From contig JAITBO010000253.1 of NCBI GenBank assembly GCA_031283505.1, forward strand, positions 1-6,155: a stretch of DNA of 6,155 bases. The letters run 5' to 3'. Position 1 is the stretch's first letter; the number at the start of each line of letters is the position of its first letter. A program made the position numbers and the translations under genes. Source of the stretch: Treponema sp. Its GTDB lineage: Bacteria; Spirochaetota; Spirochaetia; Treponematales; Breznakiellaceae. Below, in pieces: positions 1,081 through 6,155 of this stretch. A model generated the notes under the pieces. The model ran no database searches. It worked only from the letters and a program-made list of their open reading frames with translations, and was not told the origin of the DNA.

Positions 1081-1126
1081 TAGTTTTAGATGGGAGAATA
1101 ATTGAACAGCTTTCAGCCGTGAATAC

Positions 1127-1132
1127 AAGGAG
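1127..1132 (+). promoter_or_regulatory. Ribosome binding site that fixes the rpoN start
   Basis: AAGGAG ends seven bases before the GTG at 1140. The alternative GTG at 1119 lies upstream of this site and has no Shine-Dalgarno match of its own. This decides the start in favour of 1140. Confidence 0.8.
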
Positions 1133-1139
1133 TTTTTCC

Positions 1140-2519
1140 GTGCAATTGCAGCGCCCGGCTTTTATTCAGGAACAGCGGTTAAAGATGAGTCCTCAACTCT
1201 ATCAGTCTATCAAGATGATGGAGATGCCCATCGTGGATTTGCGGGAAAAAATCGAGGAAGAACTGGAACGGAATCCAGCGCTGGAGGTACTGGAGGATCG
1301 TTCCACGGTCTCCCTGGACGAGGCGTATACCCCCCCAAAAGAGGAAGACGATTACTTTGAGGTTACGTCAGACTCGGGGTTTATCCGCCAGGGCGGGAAT
1401 GGGGCTGCGGAGGAACAGCATGATTTTATTGAAGTGGCTCTATCCAGGCCGGAAACGCTTCAGGAGCATCTGCTTTGGAACCTGTGGCTGGAGCCGGTAG
1501 ATGTTGAGATCCGGCGGCTTGGAGAACTTCTCATTCAAAATCTGGATGCCGATGGGTTCCACAAAGAGCCGGTGGAGGCGCTTCTTAAAGGAGAGCCGCC
1601 GGGAAAGATTGAAGAGGCGTTGAAACTGGTACAGTCCCTGGAGCCGCCGGGATCCTGTACCAGGGATTTCCGCGAGTCCCTCCTGGTACAGACGCGGCTG
1701 TTGCCGGACGCGCCGCCGGGGATGGAAGAAGCCCTGGATTACCTGGAGCTTCTTGAAAAGGGGAAGATTGCCGAGGTTGCCAAAAAACTGGGGCGCGGTG
1801 AGAATGAAGTCAGGGTTATTTTAGAACATATTCGGGAGCTTTCGCCGTTTCCGGGGCGGCGTTTTAATTTCGAGGATACCCGGTACGTGGTTCCCGACAT
1901 ACAGGTTGTCAGGAAAGAGGGGGAATTCGTCATCATCCTGAACGAGGAAGAGATTCCGGTCCTGGGAATAAACCCTTTCTTCATGAAGATTTCCGATAAA
2001 CAGAGTGGGGGACGGAAAGACGCCGGGGCCGGTAAAGGGGCCAGGGACTTTGCCAAAGAAAATATCAAAGAGGCCCGATGGTTCATTCAGTCCATCAATC
2101 AGCGCAATCATACATTGCTGCGAGTTTCCCGGGCCATTGTGGAATTTCAGCGACCTTTTTTCGTGGACGGGCCCAAATACCTGGAGCCTCTTACCCTTCA
2201 TGATATAGCCCTGGAACTGGGAGTACACGAAACAACAGTATCCCGGACGGCCAACGGCAAGTATATGCAGACTGAATGGGGTATCTTTGAAATTCGGTAT
2301 TTTTTTACCAATTCTATTTCCGGGATCGGTTCAAATGGGTCCCGTTTTTCCAAGGAGGGCGTAAAGGAAATAATTAGGGAACTTATCTCCGGAGAAGATC
2401 GACGTATTCCGGATCAGGAGATCTCCGATCTGCTTGCCAAACGGGGAATTTCTATCGCCAGACGGACGGTCGCAAAATACCGGGGCGAACTGGATCTGGG
2501 TTCGTCATATTCAAGATGA
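1140..2519 (+). CDS. rpoN: RNA polymerase sigma-54 factor
   Basis: Encodes a 459-residue sigma-54 that directs RNA polymerase to -24/-12 promoters and needs an AAA+ enhancer-binding protein for open complex formation. From the GTG at 1140 the protein begins MQLQRPAFIQEQRLKMSPQL, which matches the usual Gln-rich activator-interacting region I (about residues 1-45) and supports this start. An acidic linker (about 50-90) and the core-binding region follow. Next comes the DNA-binding domain, with the helix-turn-helix around VHETTVSR (His363) and the KYMQTEWGIFEIRYFF block. The C-terminus carries the RpoN box ARRTVAKYR (about 440-448), which reads the -24 element. Length and domain order are normal. 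hpf follows on the same strand after about 200 bases, as in many bacteria. No enhancer-binding protein gene is visible here. A sigma-54 promoter candidate lies upstream of the second sigma gene in the window. Confidence 0.97.
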   Translation: MQLQRPAFIQEQRLKMSPQLYQSIKMMEMPIVDLREKIEEELERNPALEVLEDRSTVSLDEAYTPPKEEDDYFEVTSDSGFIRQGGNGAAEEQHDFIEVALSRPETLQEHLLWNLWLEPVDVEIRRLGELLIQNLDADGFHKEPVEALLKGEPPGKIEEALKLVQSLEPPGSCTRDFRESLLVQTRLLPDAPPGMEEALDYLELLEKGKIAEVAKKLGRGENEVRVILEHIRELSPFPGRRFNFEDTRYVVPDIQVVRKEGEFVIILNEEEIPVLGINPFFMKISDKQSGGRKDAGAGKGARDFAKENIKEARWFIQSINQRNHTLLRVSRAIVEFQRPFFVDGPKYLEPLTLHDIALELGVHETTVSRTANGKYMQTEWGIFEIRYFFTNSISGIGSNGSRFSKEGVKEIIRELISGEDRRIPDQEISDLLAKRGISIARRTVAKYRGELDLGSSYSR

Positions 2520-4629: not shown

Positions 4630-5511
4630 TTAGGCCACGTAACTTTCCAGCAGACGTTTGCGGGAAGGATGCTGAAGCCGCTTGAGGGCTTTCTTCTCAA
4701 TCTGCCGTATCCTTTCCTTGGTCAGGTTGAAGCGATCCCCGATTTCCCTGAGGGACAGGGGAGCCCTTTTCCCCAGACCGTAGCGGAACCTGATGATCTC
4801 CGCTTCTTTCTGGTTCAAGGTATCCAGCACCGCCTCAATATCGCTGTTTAAGGCCGCATCCATGGCATACTCATCCGGAGACTTGTAGTCCTGATCCTCA
4901 ATAAAATCCCCCAAGATGGAAGAATCTTTTTCGGTATACACCGGGCTTTCAAGGGAAATCAGTTCCCGGCTGATATTGATGATGTCCGCTACGTGATCCG
5001 CGCCCATATCCAGAAGTTTGGCGATCTCGTTGACCTCGGCTTCGGCGCTCTGTCCGTCCTGAACCAGCTTCCGGGCCTTCTCAATCTGCACCAGTTCGTT
5101 CGCCCGGTTGAGGGGAAGGCGTATCATTCTTGATTTTTCGCAAATAGCCTTGAGGATGGCCTGCCTGATCCACCACACCGCATAGGAGATGAAATGATAC
5201 CCTTTGTCCACATCGTAACGCTTGATGGCGTTCATGAGGCCGATGTTTCCTTCACTGATAAGGTCCGAAAGGGGAATCCCCTGGCCCTGGTATTTTTTTG
5301 CCACATTCACCACGAACCGCAAATTGGCGTTTATAAGCTTGTTTTGGGCGGCTTTGTTTCCCTGCACCGCCTCTCTGGCGATAGCGTCTTCTTTCTCCCT
5401 GCTCAGAAGCGGGATCTTGTTGATTTCTTTGAGATATATCGAAAGGATGTTCTCATCCGCATGATAATTCTGTTCGATCCGGTTATTCTTTCTTGTCTTG
5501 GTCGTTGCCAT
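4630..5511 (-). CDS. RNA polymerase sigma factor, group 2 sigma-70 family (RpoS/RpoD-like)
   Basis: Encodes a 293-residue sigma-70 family factor without the long region 1.1 of primary sigma factors. Region 1.2 starts near residue 18 (ADENILSIYLKEI). Region 2 spans about 58-123 with NLRFVVNVAKKY, DLISEGNIGLMNAI and the DNA-melting/-10 reading block YHFISYAVWWIRQAI. Region 3 follows (RLPLNRANELVQI, then the sigma finger SSILGDFIED at 198-206). Region 4 covers about 226-290, with the -35 reading helix-turn-helix around SLREIGDRFNLTKERIRQIE. These features fit a non-essential, stress or virulence type sigma factor; I recall a similar gene next to groES in Treponema pallidum. The ATG is preceded by AGGAGAGGAGA with five-base spacing. 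A sigma-54 promoter motif lies just upstream, suggesting control by RpoN. I give no symbol, because RpoS and RpoD paralogues cannot be separated by eye. Confidence 0.92.
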   Translation of the reverse strand: MATTKTRKNNRIEQNYHADENILSIYLKEINKIPLLSREKEDAIAREAVQGNKAAQNKLINANLRFVVNVAKKYQGQGIPLSDLISEGNIGLMNAIKRYDVDKGYHFISYAVWWIRQAILKAICEKSRMIRLPLNRANELVQIEKARKLVQDGQSAEAEVNEIAKLLDMGADHVADIINISRELISLESPVYTEKDSSILGDFIEDQDYKSPDEYAMDAALNSDIEAVLDTLNQKEAEIIRFRYGLGKRAPLSLREIGDRFNLTKERIRQIEKKALKRLQHPSRKRLLESYVA

Positions 5512-5548
5512 GTAGTCTCCTCTCCTATATATAGTTGTTACTTATAAC

Positions 5549-5566
5549 TAGCAACTTTTATGCCAA
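5549..5566 (-). promoter_or_regulatory. Sigma-54 (-24/-12) promoter motif for the group 2 sigma gene
   Basis: On the minus strand the sequence reads TTGGCATAAAAGTTGCT. Against the consensus YTGGCACGrNNNTTGCW it matches 12 of 14 specified positions, including the invariant GG (5564-5563) and GC (5552-5551) with exactly 10 bases between them. A start about 12 bases downstream of the GC (near 5539) leaves a leader of about 28 bases containing the AGGAGAGGAGA ribosome binding site. This is the usual geometry for a sigma-54 dependent gene. AT-rich hexamers nearby could also give a weak sigma-70 promoter, but none has good -35/-10 spacing. Confidence 0.65.
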
Positions 5567-5750
5567 AATCCACAATTTAGAAAAAACCAGAATATTTCTT
5601 TATTCTTCTAATTCTTTGCTATATAAGGAATTACGAAAAAGCCGAAGCATTTATGTATAAATATTTTCCTTCTAAAAACCTGGAACTTCCCAATAAAATC
5701 AAATCTCTCCAATAATAGCCCTGTAGATTCCAAATGAATCCGATTGCTGT

Positions 5751-5801
5751 GTCGAAATGTCTCATACAACCGAAAAGCGCCGTATTCAGGGTCATTTCGA
5801 C
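5751..5801. repeat. Inverted repeat pair, 9-bp arms, upstream of the sigma gene and groES
   Basis: GTCGAAATG (5751-5759) and CATTTCGAC (5793-5801) are perfect inverted copies 42 bp apart, about four helical turns. They lie about 210-260 bp upstream of the predicted sigma-54 start and about 45-95 bp upstream of the groES -35. They could be half-sites for a DNA-binding protein or the arms of an RNA stem with a 33-base loop. Confidence 0.4.
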
Positions 5802-5805
5802 TCAC

Positions 5806-5845: not shown

Positions 5846-5875
5846 TTGACGTTATCCTTGTATTTTTTGTATATT
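5846..5875 (+). promoter_or_regulatory. Sigma-70 type promoter for groES
   Basis: TTGACG (5846-5851) and TATATT (5870-5875) each match the consensus at five of six positions and are separated by 18 bases. Transcription would start near 5882, leaving a leader of about 44 bases. I see no CIRCE inverted repeat (TTAGCACTC/GAGTGCTAA) in or near it, so HrcA control is not supported here. Confidence 0.6.
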
Positions 5876-5925: not shown

Positions 5926-6155
5926 ATGAAAGTGAAGCCTTTGGCTGATCGGGTTATGGTTAAACTTGAGAAAAACGAGTCCAAGACCGTAGGTGGAATC
6001 ATTATCCCCGACACTGCGCAGGAAAAAACCCAGACCGGTACTGTCGTGGAAGTGGGCGATGACAAAGAAGTGATCAAGGTAAGCGCCGGCCAGAAAGTCA
6101 TGTACGATAAGTACGCAGGAACCCAGGTTAAGATCGACGGCGTGGAACACCTGAT
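5926..6155 (+). CDS. groES: Co-chaperonin GroES (Cpn10), cut by the window end
   Basis: Seventy-six full codons are visible before the window ends. GroES forms a heptameric lid on GroEL and encloses folding substrates in the cytoplasm. The start MKVKPLADRV is the family's N-terminal signature. The mobile loop that contacts GroEL covers about residues 17-33 with GGIIIPD, and the barrel strands follow through GTVVEVGDD, VSAGQKVMYDKYAGTQV and DGVEHLI. About a dozen residues should be missing at the C-terminus, judging by the usual 88-97 residue length. The ATG has GGAGG (5915-5919) six bases upstream. The gene is divergent from the sigma factor gene. No groEL is visible; it might follow outside the window or lie elsewhere, as in some spirochaetes. 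Confidence 0.96.
   Translation, partial: MKVKPLADRVMVKLEKNESKTVGGIIIPDTAQEKTQTGTVVEVGDDKEVIKVSAGQKVMYDKYAGTQVKIDGVEHL

Follow-up and report, generated by a model that had tools for sequence, protein, structure and literature searches.

A probable enhancer-dependent sigma-54 promoter before a group 2 sigma factor gene of Treponema and its distribution among spirochaetes

Introduction

In Borrelia burgdorferi, RpoN (sigma-54) activated by Rrp2 transcribes the sigma factor gene rpoS from a -24/-12 promoter. The RpoN-RpoS switch, used by Borrelia at host change, is commonly treated as peculiar to that genus; many spirochaetes appear to have its parts. A stretch of 6,155 nucleotides from Treponema sp. 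(contig JAITBO010000253.1; "the window" below means this whole stretch) contains a gene for a group 2 sigma-70 factor preceded by a sequence of the -24/-12 kind, and the question is whether RpoN switches on a second sigma factor here, and through which activator. From a comparison with related loci we consider it very probable that an enhancer-dependent sigma-54 promoter switches on this sigma factor, termed type A, through an Rrp2-type regulator acting at two upstream dyads.

In the following, G numbers denote genomes, L numbers the loci compared, and types A, B and C the sigma factor paralogues. The nearest relatives found for the sigma factor of the window are encoded in Treponema sp. metagenome assemblies (94% and 92% protein identity), a series that presumably comes from termite guts.

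A conserved predicted sigma-54 promoter in front of the sigma factor gene

The features at the centre of the question are:

5550..5566, minus strand: sigma-54 (-24/-12) promoter TTGGCATAAAAGTTGCT, with one occurrence in the window and 0 expected in shuffled sequences
5539..5540, minus strand: predicted transcription start, placed by spacing about 12 nt beyond the GC of the -12 element
4630..5511, minus strand: gene of a group 2 sigma-70 factor of type A, 293 amino acids (aa), with sigma-70 domain matches

The domain search matched sigma-70 regions 1.2, 2, 3 and 4 of the type A protein and gave no match to region 1.1, and this composition, with regions 1.2 to 4 present and 1.1 absent, is that of a group 2 factor. 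The sigma-54 promoter consensus is YTGGCAYRNNNNTTGCW, in the context YTGGCAYR-N4-TTGCW with GG and GC ten bases apart. Candidate sites were scored by the number of matches to this consensus out of 13 positions, and a site was called at a score of at least 12/13. The sequence TTGGCATAAAAGTTGCT agrees with YTGGCAYRNNNNTTGCW at 13/13 scored positions, and every other 17-mer of the window reaches at most 10/13. The GG-N10-GC spacing is right, as a preliminary description of this DNA had claimed. The predicted start near 5539 would lie 28 nt before the ATG at 5511, which is preceded by GGAGAGGAG. By itself the single site is weak because a looser pattern with two mismatches is expected to give 2.4 chance matches per stretch of this size; it is the conservation that makes it strong.

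To the 80 loci with a type A orthologue from one scan (L001-L080) we added 90 loci from a phylum-wide search (L089-L118, and 60 out of 120 rows further down the list). Without L089, which is the same place as L019, and L046, which has only 33 nt of upstream sequence, and with the window included, 169 upstream regions were available. A score of 13/13 was obtained for 115 of them, 12/13 for 46, 11/13 for 6 and 9/13 for 2. Thus a site of at least 12/13 precedes type A in 161/169 loci (150/158 after removal of near-copies), with sigma factor identities down to 51%, compared with 10/4,048 background windows of 510 nt drawn from L001-L080. Conversely, counting both strands, 2.2 Mb contain 67 exact sites, and 65 of these fall at most 200 nt before a type A gene. 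The 4.6-Mb genome of Breznakiella homolactica has 8 exact sites versus 2 for a reversed control pattern, and one of the eight is the type A site. A loss of the GG/GC motif in close relatives was looked for and not found.

Among the 167 sites of at least 11/13, T, G and G of the -24 element and T, G and C of the -12 element are conserved at 98-100%. Behind the GG, C is conserved at 93% and A at 99%, and the leading T of TTGC at 87%; as the sites were picked by score, all these percentages lean high. Further type A loci lie outside the 169. A score of 13/13 was found for L313, L328, L381 and L382, and 12/13 for L203/L244, L232/L246, L309, L325 (at -105), L330 (at -177) and L383, while L307, L308 and L310 reach 11/13 each. 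The site search that accompanied the dyad scan described below covered a short stretch and left L330 blank, yet another search returned its 12/13 site.

That the -24/-12 match is due to chance or is a fossil, and that an ordinary sigma-70 promoter reads the gene, would agree with the near-chance expectation for TTGGCATAAAAGTTGCT under the loose pattern, but we regard this explanation as very improbable in view of the 161/169 loci against 10/4,048 background windows. Moreover, the 60 nt preceding the site have at most 0.45 bits in any column, several columns directly behind it having 0.5-0.7 bits, and no sigma-70-like site was found on the minus strand between 5500 and 5940.

The proteins that a sigma-54 promoter demands occur in relatives of the window. 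RpoN was found in 79 of the 80 genomes of the related loci and is encoded in the window itself, and matches to the AAA+ activator domain PF00158 occur in the relatives G001-G004.

Paired dyads upstream of the promoter

Two dyads of 17 bp each lie 40 bp apart between the promoter and the divergent neighbour groES, dyad 1 starting 238 nt and dyad 2 198 nt upstream of the sigma-54 site:

5788..5804, minus strand: dyad 1, TGAGTCG-AAA-TGACCCT, position weight matrix (PWM) score 14.2, the best match in the window
5748..5764, minus strand: dyad 2, TGAGACA-TTT-CGACACA, PWM score 9.4 at a threshold of 8.6
5926..6155, plus strand: groES, cut by the window end, with a Cpn10 match

In L001 and L002 dyads are found at places matching those of the window. 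Ahead of the type A site the words TGACACA, TGATACA and ATGACCC are strongly over-represented, TGACACA for example occurring in 71/165 loci versus 4.4 expected. At least 12/14 positions of the dyad consensus TGKRTCA-N3-TGAYMCA are matched in 136/165 loci with the spacer of 3, versus 2 in shuffles, and spacers of 2, 4 or 5 give just 2 to 4 loci. The PWM was trained on the 165 loci, the window among them, its threshold corresponding to 95% of the shuffled maxima; the 40-bp spacing was no input to the training. With this matrix at least one dyad was detected in 163 loci and at least two in 124, and 123 of 138 successive spacings were exactly 40. A pair with a spacing of 39-41 bp is present in 119/165 loci (110/154 after removal of near-copies) and in 0/1,650 shuffles. 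The distance from dyad to promoter is variable, mostly about 90-260 nt. Since a fixed 40-bp spacing combined with a variable promoter distance suits an enhancer, the two dyads are a probable bacterial enhancer of the sigma-54 promoter.

The dyads could instead be operators at which another regulator acts, one of groES for instance, in front of a real sigma-54 promoter whose activator binds elsewhere or not at all. The position of the dyads between type A and groES in most of the 87/165 loci with a divergent groES would fit this explanation (the pair is found in 71 of these 87). However, the pair is also present in 9/13 loci with groES on the same strand and in 39/65 loci without groES in the stretch, hsp20 genes have such dyads before their sigma-54 sites too, and the operator reading does not account for the spacing pattern as well as an enhancer does. 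We therefore consider it unlikely, and keep to the dyads as a putative enhancer of type A.

An Rrp2-type protein as candidate activator

A census of enhancer-binding proteins (EBPs), defined by a PF00158 match at E below 1e-20, returned one EBP each in G242, G270, G153, G282 and G321 and in the Borrelia-like G268. The first five genomes have the dyad pair and the sigma-54 site before type A (L381, L184, L382, L197 and L383, respectively), and no type B was found in them. In four of the five the EBP is 52-55% identical to Borrelia-type Rrp2; the fifth protein, L358, was left out of the identity comparison. Together with the EBPs near type A in G231, G239 and G253, these four EBPs show 51-55% full-length identity to Borrelia-like Rrp2. 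An EBP tree parted the Rrp2-type proteins from FhlA-like EBPs (99/99). The protein of L376 consists of receiver, AAA+ and Fis-type helix-turn-helix domains, and a histidine kinase gene precedes it. Hence both the three domains of Rrp2 (in L376) and its full-length similarity (51-56%, in L380 46%) are found.

In six of eight regions (L375, L376, L377, L379, L380 and L386; not L384 and L385) type A shares its stretch with an Rrp2-like gene (46-55%); L375-L377 had been fetched since the closeness was already known, so that the unselected count is 3/5. The order murG-cvpA-holB-kinase-EBP, read from open reading frames and for some genes from Pfam, resembles the order between rrp2 and rpoS in Borrelia-like genomes. 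Because the five genomes with a single EBP carry the dyad pair before type A, an Rrp2-type protein is the likely activator of type A and would act through the dyads.

Another EBP, NtrC- or FhlA-like, might drive type A in the lineage of the window, the link to Rrp2 being confined to small genomes. The window relatives G003 and G004 have 7 and 12 PF00158 matches, some of them weak, which leaves room for such a protein. Yet the dyad consensus and the spacing are the same in the single-EBP genomes and in the wider set, and G003 has a protein 56% identical to Borrelia-type Rrp2. We judge this possibility to be unlikely and continue with the Rrp2-type regulator.

Two sigma factor paralogues and the place of Borrelia RpoS

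The Gracilinema genome, when scanned, proved to have a further group 2 sigma gene, type B, behind the same kind of site. The 30 best type B loci, drawn from 62 genomes, were scored, and each has a site (13/13 in 19 loci, 12/13 in 11); among type B-like loci outside these 30, L249 reaches 11/13 and L251 12/13. As controls, 13 RpoD and 7 type C genes were scored, and 0/20 reach 12/13 (best 11). The nine Borrelia-like rpoS loci (L235-L243) score 13/13 in eight cases and 12/13 in one.

In a tree of 88 rows, type B and Borrelia-like RpoS were found on one side of a branch (99/93), and the type A rows grouped with L245 and L250 (100/99). After removal of long branches the values were 100/97 for type B with RpoS and 100/99 for type A. 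The gene order points in the same direction. In a Borrelia-like genome it runs flgG-like ... rod-binding protein, rpoS, polysaccharide deacetylase, tsaD-like, and in the 10 type B regions fetched, deacetylase and tsaD-like genes follow in 9/10 and a flgG-like gene precedes in 7/10 (flg and tsaD names were read from the sequences, deacetylase and rod-binding domains from Pfam). This order is not seen for type A, which sits by groES. Orthology of the window's sigma factor with Borrelia RpoS was considered and dropped in view of the tree and the gene order, although the approximately unbiased (AU) test by itself did not reject a grouping of type A with RpoS (p = 0.113). On this evidence the sigma factor of the window is probably not an orthologue of Borrelia RpoS, which appears to belong with the paralogue type B.

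Many of the genomes compared have both types, among them the close relative G003, whose type B site scores 13/13. The T. pallidum-like G060 has type A with a 12/13 site, and the type B query returned one match in this genome, no better than RpoD elsewhere. In the nine Borrelia-like genomes the sigma factor search returned RpoD and RpoS only. We take G060 to be T. pallidum and its type A gene to be TP1012, from its place beside groES. In a T. pallidum proteome table, TP1012 is given as a sigma factor (PMC5015957).

Type C (L285-L291) is a third, RpoD-like sigma paralogue of 320-400 aa in seven genomes examined, without a sigma-54 site.

Other genes behind sigma-54 sites

The small heat-shock gene hsp20 lies behind a sigma-54 site with dyads 39-40 bp apart in three of the single-EBP genomes, G242 (L411), G270 (L401) and G321 (L409), for which the neighbourhoods of 3/4, 3/7 and 3/3 exact sites, respectively, were read. 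No hsp20 was found at the sites read in G153 (2/2) and G282 (2/6). In larger genomes hsp20 has a sigma-54 site at L378, with a dyad pair, and at L379, with one dyad; L378 was fetched because its pair had appeared in a single-dyad scan. As such scans are noisy, with nearly as many control matches in some genomes, only pairs or a dyad together with a sigma-54 site were used. Because hsp20 shares dyads and promoter with type A, and groES is near type A in 55/80 loci as far as the contigs reach, the type A arm probably serves protein-folding stress.

Before type B no dyad was matched in 29/30 loci (one locus has a single dyad), and before Borrelia-like rpoS none in 8/9, the ninth again with a single dyad.

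PspA, amtB and glnA are classical sigma-54 targets, and the sigma-54 pattern also picks up pspA (by Pfam) and genes taken to be amtB and glnA. No TGKRTCA-N3-TGAYMCA dyad was found at L414, the single glnA-like site that was scanned. PspA-like genes stand behind sigma-54 sites at L393, L404 and L412 (G239, G231; Pfam on L404 only), and G239 and G231 also have EBPs of 342-370 aa, which may point to a spirochaetal Psp system. Membrane protein genes of similar appearance ("...VRK...HFLIAL...") were seen behind a sigma-54 site at L126 (G002), L405 (G003) and L406 (G004).

Proposed mechanism and its distribution

The sequence-based parts of the proposal are the promoter and its conservation, the dyads of fixed spacing, the RpoN and Rrp2-type proteins of the relatives, the single-EBP genomes and the sharing with hsp20. 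A histidine kinase would phosphorylate the Rrp2-type response regulator, which would bind the two 17-bp dyads 40 bp apart, loop to the RpoN polymerase held at the -24/-12 site and melt the promoter with ATP. The type A sigma, once made, would open its own regulon; the same dyads and promoter would serve the small heat-shock gene they precede in some genomes. The enhancer role of the dyads, the binding of Rrp2, the signal and the targets of the sigma factor are the steps that we infer.

Several observations weigh against this mechanism. Within the 169 loci, L061 and L185 lack a site (9/13) and six further loci have only 11/13, and the basal rows of the A clade, L245 (11/13, far upstream) and L250 (9/13), are likewise without a site. 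The -24 GG reads AG in L179, L180, L182 and L254, from T. denticola-like genomes. A 12/13 site is still present in G369, the sole one of the 80 genomes without an RpoN match, which may be incomplete. Of the 165 loci, 46 lack the 39-41 bp pair, no dyad was found in G060, and dyad 2 of the window is near the threshold. Some genomes encode several EBPs, so another one may act, and in the EBP tree the Rrp2-type proteins are not separated from another group of receiver-type EBPs, so that the orthology with Rrp2 rests on identity and gene order.

The AG loci L179, L180, L182 and L254 have the -24 element TTAGCAT, not TTGGCAT, and keep the dyad pair. Their genomes give a low-scoring RpoN domain match (E about 1e-35). 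There is no simple link between the two, since the RpoN of G130 scores equally low and its locus L187 keeps TTGGCAT.

RpoN (PF04552) was matched in 377/392 Spirochaetota genomes, leaving 15 without a match. The use of RpoN-less genomes as a natural experiment was dropped: the Borrelia-like G241 keeps a 12/13 rpoS site and G369 its 12/13 type A site, so that a missing RpoN can be a miss or an incomplete assembly. The 11/13 scores of L307 and L308, which come from RpoN-less genomes, were not taken as proof.

In the deep sister group of type A, 20 loci of 42-52% identity that form a clade in the tree, no site of at least 12 was found, and RpoN was detected in 13/20 of these genomes. The large genomes G044, G183, G224 and G033 gave only an RpoD-sized match and a weak one near E 1e-12, neither of them type A or type B. 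The predicted circuit is thus wide among spirochaetes, not universal. The suggestion that it is shared beyond Borrelia holds for many loci and fails for the sister group.

Two type A frames have one internal TAA (G130:C1:2053126-2053953 and G287:C66:449-1303), possibly because the alignment runs past the gene end or through a sequence error.

Comparison with known systems and evolution

Promoter geometry, upstream dyads and an AAA+ response regulator are shared with NtrC-type enhancer-dependent sigma-54 promoters such as that of glnA. The TGKRTCA-N3-TGAYMCA dyad, the fixed 40-bp pairing and the sigma gene as target set the window apart from these. With B. burgdorferi Rrp2-RpoN-RpoS it has in common the RpoN -24/-12 promoter before a group 2 sigma gene and, in its relatives, homologous Rrp2-type activators (51-56% over the whole protein). 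In contrast, RpoS of B. burgdorferi appears to belong with paralogue B, dyads being nearly absent before Borrelia-like rpoS, and the sigma factor of the window is paralogue A, by groES and with paired dyads. The proposed parallel to the Borrelia cascade is supported, although a sigma factor standing in place of RpoS does not agree with the tree and the gene order. Judged by the loci compared, the cascade was proposed correctly in its general form and reaches further than first thought, and the paired dyads, a probable activator and a likely co-regulated hsp20 are added to it.

The closest treponemal parallel is the Hpk2-Rrp2 system of T. denticola. G169, putatively T. denticola, has an Rrp2-type EBP (L353, 54.5%) and a type A locus (L179) with dyads 40 bp apart, and differs in the AG of its -24 element. 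Older work on predicted sigma-54 sites in T. pallidum may mention an RpoN-driven sigma factor. Excerpts from the literature on Hpk2-Rrp2 name no target, treponemal Rrp2 is described as unstudied in a portion of PMC12070737, and in the titles and abstract beginnings of the open-licence PubMed Central literature we recognised no RpoN-driven sigma factor in Treponema. Borrelia Rrp2 is reported, in an excerpt of the literature, without specific DNA binding.

A two-armed Rrp2/RpoN-to-sigma cascade seems to be present in many spirochaetes, one arm apparently being kept in Borrelia and the other in the T. pallidum-like genome; the Borrelia cascade thus appears as a single branch of a circuit that is older and wider. 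A more far-reaching reading, for and against which we see about equal grounds, is that a large part of the spirochaetes descends from an ancestor with one phospho-activated Rrp2/RpoN system for two group 2 sigma factors, and that host-restricted lineages kept opposite arms. Arm A would have the paired 40-bp enhancer, would respond together with hsp20 to protein-folding stress and would stand in for the heat-shock sigma RpoH; arm B (RpoS), in the flagellar gene cluster, would have no such enhancer. Borrelia would have retained only B and the syphilis-type genome only A. The second arm with its defined enhancer candidate would give treponemal Rrp2 a concrete target, and it offers an explanation why Borrelia Rrp2 seems enhancer-free, the enhancer belonging to the other arm. 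It also makes the stress control of spirochaetes testable by simple reporter and binding assays.

Neighbouring features of the window

Two further features were identified:

1119..2519, plus strand: rpoN, the sigma-54 gene, with a domain match, 2.1 kb from the type A gene
5846..5875, plus strand: sigma-70-like promoter candidate of groES, TTGACG-N18-TATATT, 2 in the region and 1.5 expected in shuffles

The presence of rpoN at 2.1 kb, already remarked on in the preliminary description, is correct. Its closeness was dropped as a meaningful feature: rpoN was near type A in 0/80 related loci (flanking DNA between 0 and 10 kb on either side, in many loci short), and because it is absent from these stretches as far as the contigs reach, the proximity looks incidental. 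Between rpoN and hpf (2570-2680), nested inverted repeats were seen by eye, possibly a small mobile repeat or hairpins.
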